A stretch of DNA of 42,521 nt from Phycisphaerae bacterium (lineage in GTDB: Bacteria; Planctomycetota; Phycisphaerae; Phycisphaerales; SM1A02): NCBI GenBank assembly GCA_002722935.1, contig PBMX01000003.1, forward strand, positions 9,612-52,132. Reading direction: 5' to 3'. Shown here in pieces: positions 9,475-42,408 of the stretch. Each line of letters starts with the position of its first letter. The stretch's first letter is position 1. The position numbers and the translations under genes are program-made. Below the pieces are notes generated by a model that saw only the letters and a list, made by a program, of their open reading frames with translations, was not told where the DNA came from and searched no databases.

Positions 9475-10053
9475 ATGGCAAGACGCATTACCAGGGTGAA
9501 AGCGGTGGTACTTCTACTCCTACTCGGTGGCGTCTACCTTCTAATCGAAACAAAGGGGTGGTGGATCGTCATGCTGTGGGGCTGTCTGATACTTCTTGGG
9601 CTCCTTGCAATGCTCATTGCATATGGCTGGTTGAGGAAGAAATGGTGGTCCATTACGAGTTCTTCCGAATCGCTTCATGATCTCGATTCAATGAATGGTC
9701 GTCAGTTCGAGTCATGGATCTCCGATGTACTTCGAAGTCATGGGTTTGGTGTCTACGATACGCCTCATGCAGGAGACTTCGGAGTCGATGTATTGTGCTC
9801 CCCTCCGGGGACACGGGCGAGAATTGCCATCCAGGCCAAGAGGTACAAGGGCAATGTCGGCAACAAGGCTGTCCAGCAGGCCATTGCTGGAGCCCAGTTT
9901 CATGATTGCCAGCGATCTGCCGTCGTAACCCAATCGCACTTTACAAAAGCAGCCTGCATGCAGGCCCTGAAGGCGGACCCCCCCGTTCTGCTCGTCGACC
10001 GGGCACAAATAATGAAATTGCCTGAAATTCTTGCGGCATCTATCTCGTCATAG
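9475..10053 (+). CDS. Membrane-anchored Mrr_cat-type restriction endonuclease-like protein
   Basis: Two N-terminal TM helices, then MNGRQFESWISDVLRSHGFGVYDTPHAGDFGVDVLCSPPGTRARIAIQAKRYKGNVGNKAVQQ, i.e. the PD-(D/E)xK pattern GDFGVDV...QAK of Mrr-family nucleases. Confidence 0.85.
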   Translation: MARRITRVKAVVLLLLLGGVYLLIETKGWWIVMLWGCLILLGLLAMLIAYGWLRKKWWSITSSSESLHDLDSMNGRQFESWISDVLRSHGFGVYDTPHAGDFGVDVLCSPPGTRARIAIQAKRYKGNVGNKAVQQAIAGAQFHDCQRSAVVTQSHFTKAACMQALKADPPVLLVDRAQIMKLPEILAASISS

Positions 10054-10210: not shown

Positions 10211-10522
10211 ATGAAAGTCAGCCCAATGACGAAGGTTTCTACCTTTAAGACCAACTTCAAGGAAAATTTCGGCGTTGACATCAAGTGTCACAAGGGAATG
10301 TCCAAGGGGCACACCGCTGAAGACGAAGACAAGATGCACGAAATTTGCACAGGCATGGAAACTGACAGGGACTTCGATCTGGATATTCATGGAAACATGA
10401 ATGTGTCGACAGTGGAAAAGGAAGTTGCCGACAGCCTTGGTTTCCTGGTTCAGGTGTTGAATGCCGACGGCAGCAATGCTGATAACGACGCTACGCTTGG
10501 CGAAATTCGGGAACAGTACTGA
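10211..10522 (+). CDS. Small conserved-looking protein, tandem paralog 1 (two internal pseudo-repeats)
   Basis: Strong RBS taaggagg. VSTFKTNFKENFGVDIKCHKGMSKGH...; paralogous to the next ORF. Confidence 0.7.
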   Translation: MKVSPMTKVSTFKTNFKENFGVDIKCHKGMSKGHTAEDEDKMHEICTGMETDRDFDLDIHGNMNVSTVEKEVADSLGFLVQVLNADGSNADNDATLGEIREQY

Positions 10523-10944
10523 TGCGGGTATCACCACCAACAAAGGTCGGCACGTTCAAGTCCCGTTTCAGGGAAGAGTTCGGTGTCGACATCAAGTGTC
10601 ACAAGGGAATGTCCAAGGGCCATATTGCCGATGATGGCGACAAGCTCCATGAGATCTGCACGAAACAGGAAGTAGATCGTGACTTCGAACTGGACATTCA
10701 TGGAAACATGAAGGTCTCTACGGTTGAAGAGGAAGTCGCCCAGAGCATCGGCATCAGAGTGCAACTTCTCAACCCGGATGGCAGCAATGCAAGCAACAGC
10801 ATGACGCTTGGGGATCTTCGCAATGCCTATGAGGGTGGTACTGAGCCTGCACCTGCATCATCACCTTCACCCTCCGTGGCGAAGGCTGAGAATGCGGCAA
10901 AGAAGGGTTGCCTGATCGGACTCCTGATCGGACCATTCGTTTGA
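10522..10944 (+). CDS. Small protein, tandem paralog 2, with hydrophobic C-terminal tail
   Basis: TGATG overlap with the preceding ORF. VGTFKSRFREEFGVDIKCHKGMSKGH... Extra C-terminal linker and KKGCLIGLLIGPFV. Confidence 0.7.
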   Translation: MRVSPPTKVGTFKSRFREEFGVDIKCHKGMSKGHIADDGDKLHEICTKQEVDRDFELDIHGNMKVSTVEEEVAQSIGIRVQLLNPDGSNASNSMTLGDLRNAYEGGTEPAPASSPSPSVAKAENAAKKGCLIGLLIGPFV

Positions 10945-33519: not shown

Positions 33520-33822
33520 CTACGAAACGCCGGTCACGCTGGAGGGCCCAGCAAGAAGTTCGAAGTCGGTGATGGAGATGTTGACGAAGGCGGGATTCTC
33601 ACCGAGGGACTTGAAGAGCTCGGACTCCCTGTAGTCGAGCATCGCCTGGCGGTCGTTGAAGAGGTAGACGCCGCCGTAGGTGTTCGTCTCCTCGTTGGCC
33701 AGCCACTTCTTGGAGACCAGCCCGGGGATGGCGGCGAAGGCACCGGAGACTTCGTCGCAGACCGCCTCGTAGTCGGGGCGAGCGAGATTCTCAAGATTGA
33801 AGTTGATGATCAGGATGTGCAT
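33520..33822 (-). CDS. YdhR-like mono-oxygenase/ABM-fold protein
   Basis: MHILIINFNLENLARPDYEAVCDEVSGAFAAIPGLVSKKWLANEETNTYGGVYLFNDRQAMLDYRESELFKSL matches the YdhR pattern. Starts immediately after the STAND gene's stop codon (TGA/ATG, 0 nt gap). Confidence 0.8.
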   Translation of the reverse strand: MHILIINFNLENLARPDYEAVCDEVSGAFAAIPGLVSKKWLANEETNTYGGVYLFNDRQAMLDYRESELFKSLGENPAFVNISITDFELLAGPSSVTGVS

Positions 33823-36800
33823 TCAGTGCTCCTGCAAATGCGTATTTCCGGTGAACGGAGTCAACAGGGTTCGAATCTCACCGCTTGATTCAGAAGGCAG
33901 TACGTCGCCTTCAATCAGTGCAAGGACCGATTCGGCGACCATCGTATCCACGCAGTCTTTCGATATCGCGTCACGGATCAGCTGGACGAGAAGCATGCCC
34001 GAGGAGCCTTCTGCTGCTTCAACCCTTGCCAATCCTTCCAGGGCGAATTTGAGAGCGACCGTGGCTCTCGATCTGGTGGCCAGAAGTGCGCTCTCCTCGT
34101 AGTAGCGCCTCGCCTCGTCGAGCAGTCGGGCCTGCTCATCCTTGTTTCCTGCGCTCCGGCCCTCATCGAGCGAAATACCGCCGAGCATGCTCGTCATGCG
34201 CATGATCCCACCGAGGTCGCCGGTCTCCCGGGAGATCGAGAGGTTCTGCCCGTACGATTCCCTGGCCTGCTCGATCCGGCCCGATGCCATGTGGACGTCC
34301 CCGAGCCCTCCATGTCCGATCGCTTCACCCTTTCGGTCGGATACGCCCGGGCTTCGATTCAGGTCGATGGCCTGTTTGAAGAGAGTTTCAGCTCCCTGCG
34401 CGTCACCGGCATGATGCAGCCTCGACATCCCAAGGGAGTTGCAGATCTCGCTCTGCAGGAGGAGCATTTCGTGGCGGGTTTTCTGGTCAGGGGTTTGCTC
34501 TGCTGCCGCGGTCGTTTCCGCGTACAACTGCTCGAGTGCCTCGTGCTTCTCGCCCGCCTGTGTTCGCGGGTCCATGCAGAGCGCCTTGATGAAACGTCCA
34601 CGAGCGGCCATCCAGGGTGGGGATGCCTGGTCTTCGACGAGTGACTGCACCGCCATGTCCGCTTCTTCGAACCGGCGTTGCTTGTACATCGCAAGGCCTC
34701 TCAGGATCGCGATTCGGTATCGCGTCGTCGATTCCGGATCCGTCAGGGCATCGAGGATGTCTTCCGCCTGCGAGAGTGAATCCAGGGCTGTATCAGGCTG
34801 TTCCTCGGCATCGAGAACGAGCTGGGCATGCATCGTGAGCAGGCCGATCCGTTTCTCACCAGGGATGGCGAGGTCGCTTCGATCCCGTGTCAGGTCGATC
34901 GCTGGCTTCAACTCGCGAAGCGCTCGGCCGTAGAGCCGTCGCTGCTCACATCGTCCAGCTGCCATGCATGACCATCGAATCGTCTCCATCGGCATGCGCT
35001 CGGAAACCATCGAAGCATGCCTTGCGATCGAGAGAACTTCCGTGAACGGAATCGCCGACTCATCCGCGTACTTCGCATCGAGTTCAGCGGCTCGAACCTG
35101 GACGAATCTCATGTGATACTCACGGGCCATCTGCTGAACCTCGGCCGGGTTCCGGCCAGGCTCCGATCTGAACGCTCCTGCAATGCGCTTGTCACGGAAT
35201 TCGAAGATGTCATCGGCCTCCACGCGATCGATGACGATCCCTCGCAGTTCCGCTTCCTTCAGCAGGGAAAGCAGCTCGATGACGTCTATGTTGAAGATCC
35301 TGGCCACGAGCGAGACCTGGAAAGAGCGTCCGATCACGGCGCAGCAGTGGAGAATGTCGAGCAACCGGCGATCGAGTCCATCGAGCTCGTTAGCAACCAT
35401 GTCCTTGAACTCGCTGCCGGGGGTAATCGATGCCAGGGATGTCGACGGGTCGAGGTCGATCCGTCCATCGATCATCTTCAAGGCATGCTGTTCAAGGGCG
35501 ATCTTCATGAACTCGAGTCGATGCAATGGGAGTTCAAGTCCCTTGAGTTCCATTTCACGGGTGATGACTCGGCGGGCGCGTTCAGTGCAGCGAAGCGTTT
35601 CAAGAAGCCGGGTACGCCACTCGGTCGAGTTCTCTTCTGTTCCCAGCACCTCATGGATCGGCTCCGGCCTCAGGAGGTTTACCACGCCTCGCTGCGAGAG
35701 TTCCTCGAGTTTCTCCAGCGTGATGGCGGCCTGATCCGGTTCATCCTCGCTGCCCGGGGAATGGTCGCTTCGGCAGGTGATCAGAATGCAGACTCGATTC
35801 CGCATGTCAGGTTCGCCGGAGACGAAACGATCTACGAGCCGTTCCAGGAGAATGTTCAGGACCCGAAGCGAATCATCGTCGATCCACTGGATGTCATCCA
35901 GGATCAGGACGACTCGCCTGCCGCCGGGCTGATCTCCCGAGGGCATGACGTAATGGCCGAGCACCTCGGCCATCTCGTCGGCGATCATGCCCTCGTTTGC
36001 CGAGACGAACTTTTCGTCATCACTTCCAGCGAGATCCAGTGCCACCGAGATCGCCGAGCCGGCAATGGACGCGTTCGAGGCAACTTTGGAGAGTCCCTCC
36101 TGCATGCGGCGGGCATTTTCCGCGGGATTGCTGAATCGATGAACCCCCATGAGCTCGCCGAAGGCCTGTCGAAGGGGTTCGTAGGGAATATCCGCCTCGG
36201 GATCGCCGGGTTCATTGCAATCCCCGAAGAGGACGATGGTGTCCCCGCCGAGAGCACTGCCAGCGACTTCAAGCCGGATTCGTTCACCAAGTTCACGCGC
36301 TGTCCGTGTCTTGCCACACCCGTGACTGCCCTCAAGCCAGGCGATCTCGATGGCGTCGTCGGAAGCTCCTTCGCCGAGAATGCCCTCGAGCAGACTCCCG
36401 AGAAGGCTCGATGATGCGGCCGTATCGACGTATGGCGGATCCCGAAGCAGTTCGGATTCACTTGTTTCGAGCTCAGCGTCTTCCTCGACGGTATTCCCCC
36501 TGTCCAGGCCGCCTTTGAGGACGAGGGTCCCGAGGTAGGCGGCCGGCGGAATGCAGCCTGCGGCGATCGAATTGGTCCACGTGCCCCGAACCTCGAGGAT
36601 CGAGGCGATGGTTACTCCAAGGAGCCCGGCAACCATGGCGGCCATGTCCCAGTGGCTGCCTGTGCGGTTCCAGGCACACCATGATCGTGACACCCCGACG
36701 AGCGTAATGAGGCCGAGGATCGCCGGCAGGCTGAAGATCGCCACGGCGTGTCCCAGGCCGCTGATCGGTCCGGCGTGCAATACGAGATTCACCTGTGCTC

Positions 36801-38085
36801 CAAACCAACTTCCGGCAAGCAGGATCGCCACCATGTCCGAGTTGCCCAGCCGGGTGGCGATGGCGTTGAACCTGGTGGCGGTCACGTACACCAGGAGCAT
36901 CGGCAGCACTGTCAATGCAATGGAACTCCCCATGATCCAGGCGATTGAAATCGAGGTGGGGTGCAGCATCTCGAGGTCGGGCGTGGCCAGGCGCAGGCCC
37001 GCTTGCGCCATCGTGGAAAAGGCGAATCCACCGATGATCGCGACGACCATGGTCCAGGCCGGGGGCGTGGGGGCATGCAGGAGTACAGCGTGGTCGAGCG
37101 TGGTGGTGCGGAGCGAGCGCACGATCAGCGGATGCAGTCCAACGCCCAGCAGCAGGATCAGGTAGACCAGGGCCTCGAGGAATCCGACATCCTGCGCAAA
37201 ACCGTCGACGTACCATTGACGGCCGGGCTCGATCCGATCCTGCTTCGACCCTCCATCCGGAATCGCCGTCGGCCACAACTGGTAGTAGCCTCCGAGGTAA
37301 TAAAGTTCATCGACGGTATCGTTGTGCTTGATGGTAAGCACGCCGATCTTCTCGATTTCCAGGTCGACTGAACTCATCTGCCCTGCAAGTTCACGCAATG
37401 CCTCGGGGTCCGGAGGATTCTGCCTCAATTTCTGAAGCAGGTCCGCCCCCAGGCTCGCCGCCAGTTCCCTGTCGGAGATCGCGTAGTACGGCTTGTTGTT
37501 GTTGATGTAGACGTGCACGGCATCCCGTGCGGCACCACCAAATTCCTCTTGAAGCGGCCCGAGTTCCGTCTGGACGACCATGTACGGTAGGTCGTTCTCC
37601 ATGTGGATCCTGGTATCGCCGTGCAGGATCGAGGCCGCGATCCGTTCCGAGGCCACCTCGACGGGCTCGTCGTACCACTCGTAGATCTCGTCCTGGCCGA
37701 AGAGCAGTCCGTAGTACGGGGACCAGGCTCCAAGCTGCTCTGATCGCTCATCGAGCATTGTTGCCAGTTGCTCGTGCCCCTCCCTGATCTGCAGGGCCTG
37801 CCCCCCGGGGGGCGATTGCATCGATGACAGGTCCTCGATGCTGAATCCAAGTTCTCCTGCAGCGCCTTCATAGAAATCCAGGGCCCTTTGCACCTCCGTG
37901 AGGCTCCAGGGCCGCGCACGGCTTACCCAGTACATGGTGTTGGCATGTTCCAGGTGCTCGGCGGCGCGTTCCTCGTTCGTTGATGCGATCGCAGGGCTGA
38001 TTCCCGCTGCTTGAATCGACAAGGGAATGGCTGCAAGGATGGCCATTCGAACCAGGAGGGAGCGACAAGTCGAGTAGAGGGTCAC
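33823..38085 (-). CDS. Transmembrane STAND-type ATPase: signal peptide, extracytoplasmic domain, ~7 TM helices, AAA/STAND NTPase, TPR-like C-term
   Basis: GTG start. Walker A WLEGSHGCGKTRTARELG, Walker B RRVVLILDDIQWIDDDSLRVLNILL. Seven hydrophobic segments from FLEALVYLILLLGVGLHPLIV to SIAAGCIPPAAYLGTLVL. C-terminal helical repeats (AQGAETLFKQAIDLNRSPG, RIEQARESYGQNLSISRETGD). Confidence 0.8.
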   Translation of the reverse strand: MTLYSTCRSLLVRMAILAAIPLSIQAAGISPAIASTNEERAAEHLEHANTMYWVSRARPWSLTEVQRALDFYEGAAGELGFSIEDLSSMQSPPGGQALQIREGHEQLATMLDERSEQLGAWSPYYGLLFGQDEIYEWYDEPVEVASERIAASILHGDTRIHMENDLPYMVVQTELGPLQEEFGGAARDAVHVYINNNKPYYAISDRELAASLGADLLQKLRQNPPDPEALRELAGQMSSVDLEIEKIGVLTIKHNDTVDELYYLGGYYQLWPTAIPDGGSKQDRIEPGRQWYVDGFAQDVGFLEALVYLILLLGVGLHPLIVRSLRTTTLDHAVLLHAPTPPAWTMVVAIIGGFAFSTMAQAGLRLATPDLEMLHPTSISIAWIMGSSIALTVLPMLLVYVTATRFNAIATRLGNSDMVAILLAGSWFGAQVNLVLHAGPISGLGHAVAIFSLPAILGLITLVGVSRSWCAWNRTGSHWDMAAMVAGLLGVTIASILEVRGTWTNSIAAGCIPPAAYLGTLVLKGGLDRGNTVEEDAELETSESELLRDPPYVDTAASSSLLGSLLEGILGEGASDDAIEIAWLEGSHGCGKTRTARELGERIRLEVAGSALGGDTIVLFGDCNEPGDPEADIPYEPLRQAFGELMGVHRFSNPAENARRMQEGLSKVASNASIAGSAISVALDLAGSDDEKFVSANEGMIADEMAEVLGHYVMPSGDQPGGRRVVLILDDIQWIDDDSLRVLNILLERLVDRFVSGEPDMRNRVCILITCRSDHSPGSEDEPDQAAITLEKLEELSQRGVVNLLRPEPIHEVLGTEENSTEWRTRLLETLRCTERARRVITREMELKGLELPLHRLEFMKIALEQHALKMIDGRIDLDPSTSLASITPGSEFKDMVANELDGLDRRLLDILHCCAVIGRSFQVSLVARIFNIDVIELLSLLKEAELRGIVIDRVEADDIFEFRDKRIAGAFRSEPGRNPAEVQQMAREYHMRFVQVRAAELDAKYADESAIPFTEVLSIARHASMVSERMPMETIRWSCMAAGRCEQRRLYGRALRELKPAIDLTRDRSDLAIPGEKRIGLLTMHAQLVLDAEEQPDTALDSLSQAEDILDALTDPESTTRYRIAILRGLAMYKQRRFEEADMAVQSLVEDQASPPWMAARGRFIKALCMDPRTQAGEKHEALEQLYAETTAAAEQTPDQKTRHEMLLLQSEICNSLGMSRLHHAGDAQGAETLFKQAIDLNRSPGVSDRKGEAIGHGGLGDVHMASGRIEQARESYGQNLSISRETGDLGGIMRMTSMLGGISLDEGRSAGNKDEQARLLDEARRYYEESALLATRSRATVALKFALEGLARVEAAEGSSGMLLVQLIRDAISKDCVDTMVAESVLALIEGDVLPSESSGEIRTLLTPFTGNTHLQEH

Positions 38086-41000
38086 GGAGTACCCGCCAGC
38101 AGTGCGTCCCTATACGCCGGGTGGATGTCGATTCCATCCGGCAGGCTGCCGGAAACCACCAGAGGGGAGACCTTGTTGTATCGCCTGGTCCAACTGATGA
38201 GGCGATTGATCGACAGTTGGATTTTCTTACCCTCTTCTCCAGCTTCCGCCCTGAGGTCCGGGATGGTCCGTGCCCCATTCTCGAGCATCTTCAGCAGCCG
38301 CTGGAGCCCCGGTTCGCAGAGGTGTACCTTCTCGAGAATGGCGTCGAGGGCGAATGCAGGCCACGCGGGAACGAGGGTGGAGCGGGAAGCGGCGATGACC
38401 CCGTCGATCCATTGATTGAACAGGTCACGGTCGATCGTCTCGCTGTCGACACGGAACATGCTGTCAAGCCTGATTGCATCGGGAACCTTCTCGGGCTTGC
38501 CCCAGTTCGCGGGATCCAGTTCCATTGAAGATGCGATCGGCAGGTCCGGGTCCATCCCTTCGTACCAGTTCAACCAGAGTTCCCCAGCGCCACCCCCGGT
38601 CTTGATCCTTCCCATGGAGGTGCTGGGCGAGCCGGTTGCAGCGGACTCGGTGAGCATGAAGAATTCGAGACTCCCGCGTATCGCCGCGGCGGTCGTATGC
38701 GCCATGCGCAGCCCGATGCGCGCCTCGAAGAGGTCCTCGAGGCGATGATCGAGCCAGTTGTTCCCGTCATCCCCTCGACTGAGCATCGGGATCTCGGCCT
38801 TCCCCTTGCCGTGGGTGGCCGTCTCGGTCTTGTCGGCATCTCGGGCGAAGGACATCCGGGCGATCTCGATGAGCTGGCTCGCGGCAGCGTCGATCACGTC
38901 ATCGTCCTCCGGGGACTTCCACTCGATCTCGCAGCCGAGCCAGTAGGAGTCGCGGGTGGCGGGTTCAGGGAAACCGGGTTTCTTCGCCAGGGACCGGTAG
39001 AAACGGGTTTCCGGCCAGCGGCCCTCCGCATGCTGGGCCTGCACCCATTTGACGCCGCCCTTGGACATGCCGGGAGCACCGCTCTTGACGTTCACGATGA
39101 GGGTGTAGCGGGTCGGATCCTTCTCGGCCTGGAAGACCCAGGCGCAGCAACGGTAGGCTCCACTCGGGTCGGCGATGTCCTGGAGGCACTGGTTGTTCTT
39201 GACCTGGTCCGGGACCATGATCTCGTATCGTTGCCAGCGATGGACGCTTCGGCCTCCGATCGCAAGCGCGAACGTCGAGGCGACGGATTCCCAGGGCCTG
39301 TACTGCTTTTCGATGCGATTGAGGCACCTGCCCACCCATCCCTTGATGAACGGAAGGCCGAACTTCGAATCTCGACGAATGTCCTCCCAGGCGAGGCAGG
39401 TATCGAGTGTTCCATTCACGACCCTGTTGGTTGCGTAGATGCCCAGACCTTCGTCGCGTGATCGGAACGGTGCGCCCTCACCCCCCGGGATGTCGAATGA
39501 GTGAAGGAAGATTCTTCCCTCGCCGCTTTCCGTGAAGTCGATCGCGAAGAAGGGAATGTCACCATTGACGAAGGAGAGGACGTTTCGCTGCCCACGTTCC
39601 TTGTGGTACTTCGCCTGCCACTTCGTCTCGGTGAAGACCTGTTCCCTGACCTGGATGCCCTTTTCGCGGGCGACACCGTTGACCGCATCACGAACGATCT
39701 CGATGATCGCATCGGTTTCCGCCGCCGCGCGAAGCGATTCGCGCTCCGAATCATCCGGCAACTGCTCCTTGAGTCCCTCGAGCATCGATGCAATAAGGAT
39801 CTCCTCGCTGTCCGTGATCTGCAGGTCGCTTACGACCTCACGGACGGCGAAGCGAAACTGCCGTCGCTTGTTGCTCTTGACGAGGAATCGATATTCCTCG
39901 CTGCACTCGGTCGCGTGGCGCCTGCCCGAGAGATCCTTGTAGACCACGTCGCATATTCGCACCTGGTAGATGCCCGGCTTCCGGGCACGGATGGACCACC
40001 GCATCCTCCGGGATTCCCCCGGTGCGAGATTCACAAGGACATGCTCCGGACCGTCGAGGACCTGGAGCCCTTCGGGCACGAGGATGTAGGTTTCGACGTC
40101 CGTTGCCCGGCCAAGTCCGATGTTGTGAAGGATGACTTCGAATTCGAAGCGATCACCGATCTCGATCTCCTGTTCTCCAGCGGAGGGGTGAAGAAGGCGG
40201 TGTACATTCACGATTGGAATCAGTGCGTCGTCGGAGTTGGGATCGATGACCTGCGTCGTCGGCCCGTCCACTTCGATGGTTCCACTGTCCTCGGCGGCGT
40301 CCGCCGACTCCGTTCCGCGGTACTGGAACGTGATGGTCGCAGGTGGGATGTTCTCCGCCCCCTGGGCCACAGCTTCCACCTTGAAGATCGCCGAGTGCTT
40401 CGATCCCGTTTCCATTGAAGGCCACTCGACCTCGATCCGACGTTCATCGACGAGTTCTCCCTGCTCCTGCTCGGGCATGAACCGGAGGGTCGAAGGCAGG
40501 TTGGTCACGGCTGACAGTGATTCCAGGGTGGTGCTGTCACGTTGATTGTTCAGCGTCATGGTGAGCTCGGCAGGCACACCATCTCCCACGGTCATCTCGA
40601 GGCTTGAAAGTTCCAGAGACGCCTCGATGTTCGGGGTGATCAGTTCAGCGGACTTGAAGAGGCGTTCGAAGAGTTGCCGCCGGGCTGGAAGGTTGACGCC
40701 GTGGTTCACGAGCCATTTGGAAACGTCGATCGTCGAGGTGCCCGCGATGCTCAGGAAGCCGAGCATGTTGGAGTTCTTCTTGATCTCCTTCGAGTACAGG
40801 GAGAGCTCCGTATTCTGCTCGCCGTCGATGGGCGCGACGATGGCCAGTGGCAGGAGGCGTATGAGCGACGTTCGTTTTCCGTTGAGCAGGACCGGCTCGC
40901 TGACGGGAATCATGATGCCGGGAGTCTTGACCTCGATGGGTGTCGTTCCACCCGCGACGTACCGTGTCCCGAAGTAGCACTGCTCCGTGCCGTTGATCTC

Positions 41001-41567
41001 GAAGCGATCGAATTGGGCCAGTTGCCATTCCTCGAGGAAGCCCAGCCTGGAAATGACGTCGTCGAGCATTTTCCGACGTTCATCGAGCTCATCCTCGAGT
41101 TTCTCCACCGAGATGATCGGGCCATGGGCGTCATGGTTCCGCCGTGTGACGAGTTCGTCGATCGCCTTCTTTGCCCCCGGGTAGACTGCAAGAGCTTCCG
41201 GGAGGGTGGATTTCAGGCCATGCTTCTTCGTGAACTCGGCCAGTGTTCGCAGGAGGGCGACCCATTTGCCCAGCGACATCTGTTCCATGCCGACCCGGTG
41301 CAGTTCGGCAAGGGTTTCGTTCGCCTTCTCCGAAGTGATGGCGGCAAGAAAATCATCCTTCGTTTCTTCGGATTTCGCTTCCTCCGCCTCCTCCTCGAGG
41401 CCGGCAACGAGATCGAGCAGGTCACCGACGGCGATGGCGCCGAGGAGGCTGAGCGTGTTCTCCAGCGCGATCCGGAGCATGTCCTTTCGCTGGGGGTTCC
41501 CCGGAGTGGCCATGGCCAGAGGCGAGGCGATAGGGCTGGGCAGGTAGGAGAGAGGGTCTGCAGTCAT
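38082..41567 (-). CDS. Large cytoplasmic protein with N-terminal HEPN-like motif, CARDB/ASH-like beta-sandwiches and uncharacterised C-terminal domains
   Basis: Start at MTADPLSYLPSPIASPLAMATPG; no signal peptide. KKAIDELVTRRNHDAHGPIISVEKLEDELDERRKMLDD (RX4H). IEIGDRFEFEVILHNIGLGRATDVETYILVPEGLQVLDGPEHVLVNLAPGESRRMRWSIRARKPGIYQVRI. GTGA overlap with the STAND gene. Confidence 0.75.
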   Translation of the reverse strand: MTADPLSYLPSPIASPLAMATPGNPQRKDMLRIALENTLSLLGAIAVGDLLDLVAGLEEEAEEAKSEETKDDFLAAITSEKANETLAELHRVGMEQMSLGKWVALLRTLAEFTKKHGLKSTLPEALAVYPGAKKAIDELVTRRNHDAHGPIISVEKLEDELDERRKMLDDVISRLGFLEEWQLAQFDRFEINGTEQCYFGTRYVAGGTTPIEVKTPGIMIPVSEPVLLNGKRTSLIRLLPLAIVAPIDGEQNTELSLYSKEIKKNSNMLGFLSIAGTSTIDVSKWLVNHGVNLPARRQLFERLFKSAELITPNIEASLELSSLEMTVGDGVPAELTMTLNNQRDSTTLESLSAVTNLPSTLRFMPEQEQGELVDERRIEVEWPSMETGSKHSAIFKVEAVAQGAENIPPATITFQYRGTESADAAEDSGTIEVDGPTTQVIDPNSDDALIPIVNVHRLLHPSAGEQEIEIGDRFEFEVILHNIGLGRATDVETYILVPEGLQVLDGPEHVLVNLAPGESRRMRWSIRARKPGIYQVRICDVVYKDLSGRRHATECSEEYRFLVKSNKRRQFRFAVREVVSDLQITDSEEILIASMLEGLKEQLPDDSERESLRAAAETDAIIEIVRDAVNGVAREKGIQVREQVFTETKWQAKYHKERGQRNVLSFVNGDIPFFAIDFTESGEGRIFLHSFDIPGGEGAPFRSRDEGLGIYATNRVVNGTLDTCLAWEDIRRDSKFGLPFIKGWVGRCLNRIEKQYRPWESVASTFALAIGGRSVHRWQRYEIMVPDQVKNNQCLQDIADPSGAYRCCAWVFQAEKDPTRYTLIVNVKSGAPGMSKGGVKWVQAQHAEGRWPETRFYRSLAKKPGFPEPATRDSYWLGCEIEWKSPEDDDVIDAAASQLIEIARMSFARDADKTETATHGKGKAEIPMLSRGDDGNNWLDHRLEDLFEARIGLRMAHTTAAAIRGSLEFFMLTESAATGSPSTSMGRIKTGGGAGELWLNWYEGMDPDLPIASSMELDPANWGKPEKVPDAIRLDSMFRVDSETIDRDLFNQWIDGVIAASRSTLVPAWPAFALDAILEKVHLCEPGLQRLLKMLENGARTIPDLRAEAGEEGKKIQLSINRLISWTRRYNKVSPLVVSGSLPDGIDIHPAYRDALLAGTP

Positions 41568-41801: not shown

Positions 41802-42278
41802 TCAGGCAGGGGTGACGATCACGATTTCGTCCCTCGTGTACTCGTCATCTTCTTCAACCTGGTAGCGAAGGTACGTGGCACCATTGAACGCCCCACGAGG
41901 GTTGCCGAACTCACCGAACTCCGAGTCGAGCGGTTCGATGTAATTCGCCTGATCCCCGGTTCCATGGATGAAGTGGGTCCAGGCCGTCTCGAGTACCTGG
42001 TTGGGCGCGTGCCCGGGAAACAAGCCAACGAAACCCTGGAGTGGTTCCAGGATTCGCGAGCAGACTTCGGACCAGGTCTCCAGGTCGATCGATCGAGGAT
42101 CGTCGATGACGGCTTCAAGGGCCGCTTCACTCTCGAGGCAGGAAATGTCCCCCGACTCGCTGCAAATGAACAAGGTGAACTCCAGGCCGCCGAAGCTTCC
42201 GGGGTCCCCGCACTCGATTCGCTCCTCCTGGCAGTCCTTCGGAACGAGGCCGATCGTCAGTATGTGTTTCATGCTCAT
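41802..42278 (-). CDS. Hypothetical acidic cytoplasmic protein
   Basis: Start MSMKHILTIGLVPKDCQEERIECGDPGSFGGLEFTLF; continues to DEIVIVTPA. Confidence 0.6.
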   Translation of the reverse strand: MSMKHILTIGLVPKDCQEERIECGDPGSFGGLEFTLFICSESGDISCLESEAALEAVIDDPRSIDLETWSEVCSRILEPLQGFVGLFPGHAPNQVLETAWTHFIHGTGDQANYIEPLDSEFGEFGNPRGAFNGATYLRYQVEEDDEYTRDEIVIVTPA

Positions 42279-42408
42279 GGTCCGTGGCTCCCGCCTGGCG
42301 ATCGATGCGAATCCACTTGCGGCCGGGAGTCGCATTCGGTCATCCTACAGATACCCGGTGGCCTTGATGATCAGGGTATGATCATGTTTCAAGTTGATGA
42401 CCTTATCA

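Follow-up and report, generated by a model that had tools for sequence, protein, structure and literature searches.

Can a STAND ATPase be built as a receptor that looks out of the cell? The question is raised by one gene in a 42,521-nucleotide stretch of DNA (the window) from a Phycisphaerae bacterium (Planctomycetota; GenBank assembly GCA_002722935.1, contig PBMX01000003.1, positions 9,612 to 52,132), a metagenome-assembled genome (MAG) that is 65% complete and divided into 46 contigs. The original prediction described its product, here called 7TM-STAND (P0001), as a protein with a signal peptide, an extracytoplasmic domain, seven transmembrane (TM) helices and a cytosolic STAND core. Those STAND immune proteins of bacteria that have been examined to date are for the most part soluble and are triggered by phage proteins that have reached the cell interior. 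We find that the predicted layout holds and is conserved in several phyla, and that the gene overlaps a second one, overlooked in the prediction, whose product (P0002) has a probable HEPN-like domain and supplies the strongest functional clue. Our tentative reading of the pair is a membrane-embedded STAND switch coupled to a HEPN-type effector, passing a cue from the envelope to a HEPN RNase-type partner.

From N to C terminus, P0001 consists of a signal peptide, an extracytoplasmic region of ∼265 amino acids (aa), seven membrane helices, an AAA_16/STAND core and TPRs. A hydropathy scan picked out an N-terminal segment (residues 11–29) and seven more, at residues 304, 346, 381, 418, 447, 481 and 507, the seventh being the weakest. 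At a stricter cut-off (1.6), the membrane block kept six peaks, while 500 shuffles of the protein never gave more than four in any 240-aa stretch. In an AlphaFold2 model of residues 1–560, based on a 16-sequence alignment (mean predicted local distance difference test score (pLDDT) 78.7, predicted template modelling score 0.73), long helices span residues 304–326, 343–366, 377–404, 416–442, 444–475, 478–498 and 503–530. Lysine and arginine are in excess on the predicted inside loops (counted together with the first 20 residues past the seventh helix) versus the outside loops in 17/17 family members, a pattern that places the N terminus outside and the C terminus inside in all 17.

The hydrophobic N-terminal segment recurs across the family, and cleavage in P0001 would fall between SPAIA and STN. 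A cleaved signal peptide leaves seven TM helices, and an uncleaved one gives eight with the N terminus inside; either way, residues 35–300 lie outside and the ATPase inside. The predicted architecture is thus borne out by hydropathy, the structural model, loop charge and the AAA_16 match given below. The count is seven with the N terminus outside, not an even number with a cytoplasmic N terminus, and full-length homologs retain the TM block. The topology rests on the first three of these lines of evidence, and the data come from MAGs.

Pfam AAA_16 matches residues 570–749 (E 1.7e-11, above the cut-off) and was also matched in other members. In an alignment of 17 members, 16 retain the lysine of Walker A, the exception being GPAGAGTTT in G243b (genome labels are ours), and the Walker B of P0001, VVLILDDIQW, has counterparts of the form ED/DD-x-(Q/H)-W in most. 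Past the P-loop domain, where a GxP-type motif and a winged helix are expected of STAND NTPases, P0001 contains PLHRLE and other members show P alone or nothing; by analogy, a winged helix may lie within residues 801–1000. The TPRs are weak (∼1107–1335), with TPR_2 just above and TPR_12 below the cut-off, and the TPRs of GPSM2 match at E 1e-7. Judging from its P-loop motifs and TPRs, P0001 appears to belong to the STAND class. In P0016, the AAA-to-post-AAA region aligns to TIGR03903.

How widespread is this architecture? We searched 1901 sampled genomes overall, some more than once. The layout is common to at least 17 proteins from the Planctomycetota, Cloacimonadota and Bacteroidota, so it is not a chance fusion. 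Full-length relatives are found in G860 (64% identity), G051 (49%), and G854 and G243 (about 28–29%), and a distant planctomycete (G951) also carries the gene. The Cloacimonadota genomes are G446, G563, G445/G533 (apparently one same locus), G536, G538 and G546, and those of the Bacteroidota are G443, G444, G447 (partial), G448, G449 and G624. In each full-length member, a hydrophobic N terminus or signal peptide is followed by ∼220–265 residues outside, about seven membrane segments and a P-loop at ∼523–627. Many AAA_16 matches (L020–L050) come without a TM block; these we took as generic ATPase relatives and not as family members.

Codon positions 1, 2 and 3 of the P0001 gene differ from those of its nearest relative, an ortholog whose product is 64% identical, at 28, 19 and 61%, respectively, which indicates purifying selection. 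In a tree, members group largely by phylum; G243b falls with the Cloacimonadota on a long branch. It is one of two tandem paralogs in G243 (L007 6237–14404), the start of one overlapping the stop of the other. G243a is intact and G243b has the altered P-loop and a degenerate Walker B, which suggests, from the motifs, an active/pseudo-ATPase pair. Occurrence is sparse: one match among 397 genomes of the class besides the window's own, 2 of 198 of the order Flavobacteriales, and 3 of 294 of the phylum, the window's own included. Such patchiness fits mobile or conflict genes. The genes of the locus had no phage or plasmid matches, and a phage or plasmid origin was rejected for that reason.

What might such a protein control? 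The GTG start of the P0001 gene falls inside the stop codon of P0002, the gene upstream, so that the two overlap by 4 bp. A profile search with P0002 across 181 genomes from the family found this partner in four, each of a different genus and always directly before 7TM-STAND; three of the junctions are 4-bp overlaps, and the remaining one is a gap of ∼40 bp. The G854 partner is distributed over two contigs, and it is the half with the C terminus that adjoins 7TM-STAND. P0002 has neither TM segments nor a signal peptide, as befits a cytosolic protein. Its AlphaFold2 model (mean pLDDT 63.6) is of lower confidence in the C-terminal alpha/beta part, and Foldseek results are dominated by Ig-domain matches. 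At its N terminus, the R, N and H of an RNxxxH motif are invariant in 8/8 partners, and the motif conforms to the Rx4-6H pattern of HEPN domains. Against HEPN-NACHT partners of other lineages, this N terminus gives an HHalign probability of 93 (E 3e-7) and a BLAST E of about 1e-4. These comparisons point to a probable HEPN-like domain and, with it, a probable RNA-cutting partner.

The HEPN-NACHT proteins just mentioned occupy the partner's place in G951 and in the Cloacimonadota G445/G533, G536 and G538; in G446, such a protein is found at a distance of one gene. The Cloacimonadota neighbor matches Avs2 across its NTPase (E 1e-6), alone among the proteins tested in matching Avs; Avs models match neither P0001 nor P0002. 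N-terminal HEPN domains combined with STAND modules are already known in the HEPN superfamily (PMC3710099), and the neighbors in the Cloacimonadota and G951 belong to this kind. The window pair resembles them in combining a HEPN-like part with STAND, and differs in that the HEPN-like/Ig part and the membrane STAND part are two proteins encoded by one overlapping gene pair.

Two further kinds of neighbor were seen. In the Cloacimonadota (L013, L082, L083, L084), a Zn-dependent phospholipase C-like gene (PF00882, E 6e-10), possibly a further effector, sits between the HEPN-NACHT partner and 7TM-STAND. At or near several Bacteroidota copies are DUF481-type outer-membrane genes (L011 11466–12224, L088 8823–9584, L016 1626–2474).

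Table 1. Features of the 7TM-STAND locus and possible accessory genes, in window coordinates
Feature	Position	Strand	Evidence or remark
7TM-STAND protein P0001, 1420 aa	33823..38085	-	Open reading frame (ORF) and translation; full-length relatives in three phyla
Signal peptide, residues 1-34	37984..38085	-	Hydropathy peak 11-29; AlphaFold2 helix 2-26; hydrophobic N terminus recurs among family members
Extracytoplasmic domain, residues 35-300	37186..37983	-	AlphaFold2 model; weak Foldseek matches; no Pfam family
Seven transmembrane helices, residues 304-530	36496..37176	-	Hydropathy, AlphaFold2, K+R loop counts, shuffles
AAA_16-type STAND P-loop domain, residues 561-800	35686..36405	-	Pfam AAA_16, also in other members
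Walker A GSHGCGKT, residues 586-593	36307..36330	-	Alignment of 17 members
Walker B VVLILDDIQWID, residues 725-736	35878..35913	-	Alignment
Helical and putative winged-helix region of STAND core, residues 801-1000 (PLHRLE motif; LDILHCCAVIGRSF...)	35086..35685	-	Alignment
TPR region, residues 1001-1400	33886..35085	-	Pfam TPR_2/TPR_12, GPSM2 TPR match
Partner P0002, 1161 aa from ATG (open frame to 41738)	38082..41567	-	HEPN-like N terminus, two Ig-like domains, C-terminal alpha/beta regions
HEPN-like domain of P0002 (probable), residues 1-180	41028..41567	-	Helical in AlphaFold2; HHalign; sub-threshold HEPN_RiboL-PSP
RNHDAH (RNxxxH) motif of P0002, residues 143-148	41124..41141	-	Alignment of 8 partners
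Two Ig-like/DUF11-like beta domains of P0002, residues ∼314-564	39876..40628	-	Weak BatD/DUF11; Foldseek Ig-type matches
Small upstream gene, 177 aa, possible accessory	41802..42335	-	50% identical homolog upstream of pair in G860
Membrane-anchored Mrr-type nuclease, possible accessory	9475..10053	+	Mrr_cat E 1e-25; NA-iREase1 (NACHT-associated inactive REase model)
Small two-repeat protein, possible accessory	10522..10944	+	65% (G860) and 51% (G051) to genes close to pair

How does 7TM-STAND relate to known systems? With STAND NTPases (AAA_16, MalT, TOMM kinase-cyclase, and Avs/NLR proteins as functional analogues) it shares the P-loop, Walker A, DD-type Walker B, helical region and C-terminal TPR arm. 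It differs at its N terminus, where a signal peptide, extracytoplasmic domain and 7 TM helices stand in place of a soluble effector or kinase/cyclase, and in having its HEPN-like effector candidate on a separate polypeptide. Tmn/KAP-family proteins are likewise membrane-associated P-loop NTPases, tied to phage defense (PMC11846954), and in KAP proteins TM segments are inserted within the NTPase domain, according to the title of Aravind 2004 as cited there. In P0001 the TM block precedes an uninterrupted AAA domain; with this order of parts and no match to a KAP or Tmn model (Pfam, PADLOC), membership was rejected. In the mostly open-access literature that we searched, we found no publication joining STAND NTPase and seven transmembrane, although an earlier mention is possible. 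The P-loop/TPR class itself is known; it is the 7TM-STAND layout that we did not find described in these sources.

The original prediction had also looked to the 7TMR-DISM receptors, which have an extracytoplasmic domain, seven TM helices and a cytosolic output, as P0001 does. That kinship was not borne out. Pfam has no family for the stretch from the N terminus through the membrane block in any of 16 members, and no 7TMR-DISM or DISMED1/2 model matched in these 16 at E values up to 1. The output of P0001 is STAND, and its modeled ectodomain is helical (residues 37–128) and then alpha/beta (141–299). Foldseek with the ectodomain returned only weak matches (E 0.1–1.4): CT253, TolB in complex with colicin or Pal, and CsgG. 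The first three had a probability of 0.94–0.99, and none of the matches resembles the ectodomain of 7TMR-DISM. We accordingly rejected membership in the 7TMR-DISM group. In predicted topology, residues 141–299 resemble the TolB N-terminal domain (TolB-N), CsgG and CT253, and may tentatively be assigned a TolB-N/CsgG-like fold; the difference is that no sequence match to P0001 accompanies the weak structural ones. TolB, CsgG and CT253 are not known to occur in fusions with 7TM or STAND parts.

The 7TM-STAND/HEPN pair is probably a conflict or stress system. The layout, its conservation and the gene pairing are observed; under the reading that we tentatively prefer, of a membrane-embedded switch with a HEPN-type effector, we infer the direction of the signal, the ligand and the RNase activity of the partner. 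An envelope cue (a ligand, phage contact or envelope damage) would be felt by the ectodomain/7TM module and would free the STAND ATPase from its resting state. ATP-driven clustering would then occur in the plane of the membrane, and the clustered TPR arms would bind and activate the HEPN partner, which would cut RNA and so halt growth. The switch logic would be that of NLR/Avs immune switches, with two differences: the inner membrane would be where the input arrives or what it crosses, and a second polypeptide would carry the effector. A bolder form of this proposal, that these proteins are a new class of transmembrane STAND receptor with a sensor outside the inner membrane and a signal passed across to a separate HEPN RNase, we regard as doubtful. 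If it were true, a bacterium could sense an attack by phage or on its envelope before the cytoplasm is entered. The family with its HEPN-like partner would offer a direct test of outward-facing NLR-type receptors in bacteria.

Several observations weigh against the switch-effector proposal. The HEPN partner is not universal: we found no HEPN neighbor for the Bacteroidota members, G243 or G546. The best Pfam model for the HEPN-like domain, HEPN_RiboL-PSP, is below the cut-off (E 0.03 for P0002 and 0.0016 for the G951 partner). With PADLOC, P0001 matches only generic TPR and no defense model, and P0002 matches nothing. Finally, the parts of the protein change at different rates. The ectodomain is conserved about like the ATPase in the Bacteroidota and Cloacimonadota (in Cloacimonadota pairs it is the slowest or near-slowest region) and modestly less in Phycisphaerae pairs, unlike a fast-evolving recognition domain. 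The TPR region has the lowest or near-lowest identity of the main regions in most pairs. Identities for the ectodomain, TM, AAA and TPR regions are 50, 49, 50 and 29% between G443 and G444 (Bacteroidota; 49–54% outside the TPRs), and 63, 67, 73 and 57% in the closest Phycisphaerae pair (63–75% outside the TPRs).

These identities lean a little toward an inverted polarity, without deciding the matter. In this alternative, the TPR arm senses a cytosolic trigger, the ectodomain and 7TM block are the effector, acting as a pore or disrupting the membrane on oligomerization, with a co-effector or regulatory role left to the HEPN partner. Low TPR identity in both pairs speaks for it, as does the STAND convention of an N-terminal effector and a C-terminal sensor, the C-terminal repeats being what senses in Avs/NLR proteins; the DUF481 genes beside several Bacteroidota members also favor it. 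Yet rapid change in the TPRs could stem from co-evolution with the partner. Moreover, a signal peptide and a folded outside domain of this size exceed a pore's needs, and known TM effectors usually have 1–4 small helices. We consider inverted polarity unlikely.

Quite unlikely, in our estimate, is a housekeeping role, in which the protein would be a regulator of envelope signaling or maintenance and not part of a conflict system, reporting on envelope assembly, with the ATPase/TPR part and the partner as scaffold. The weakly matched TolB-N/CsgG-like fold is one of envelope machines, DUF481 and OmpA-type proteins are among the Bacteroidota neighbors, and the lack of phage or plasmid copies in our searches is in keeping with such a role. 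Against it stand the extreme patchiness (4/181 family genomes), which is unlike that of housekeeping genes, the invariance of the HEPN-like RNxxxH, and the Mrr-type nuclease that accompanies the pair in G860. That P0001 is a soluble STAND regulator of the ordinary kind whose hydrophobic region has been misread, or a fusion made in assembling an incomplete MAG, is hardly credible and already contradicted, given that at least 17 proteins of separate genomes have the identical uninterrupted ORF layout and that the shuffles and the AlphaFold2 model favor seven helices.

Three other genes in the window are possible accessories (Table 1). Its Mrr-type nuclease is 66% identical to the G860 gene adjoining the pair, and in the window lies ∼28 kb from the pair. 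The two-repeat protein also has ∼30% identity with genes that lie close to the 7TM-STAND gene of G624 (Bacteroidota). We considered and rejected a GAP1/EACC1-type conflict system (PMC7159879), as the genes do not correspond. Abutting the 3′ end of the 7TM-STAND gene is a ydhR-type monooxygenase gene (33520–33822, minus strand; Pfam E 7.5e-17), which is probably unrelated because it was not seen beside other 7TM-STAND copies.

Elsewhere, a locus in G892 (L101 5178–9634) encodes the ectodomain and the first four TM helices, followed in other reading frames by a kinase part and WD40 repeats. This appears to be a mosaic that is broken or was mis-assembled, and we did not take it to show that the module serves other outputs. 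Adjoining the G624 copy (L088 9605–14971) are two large genes with no Pfam match; by eye, their 1208- and 571-aa products appear to resemble actin/Hsp70-like and tubulin-like nucleotide-binding proteins.

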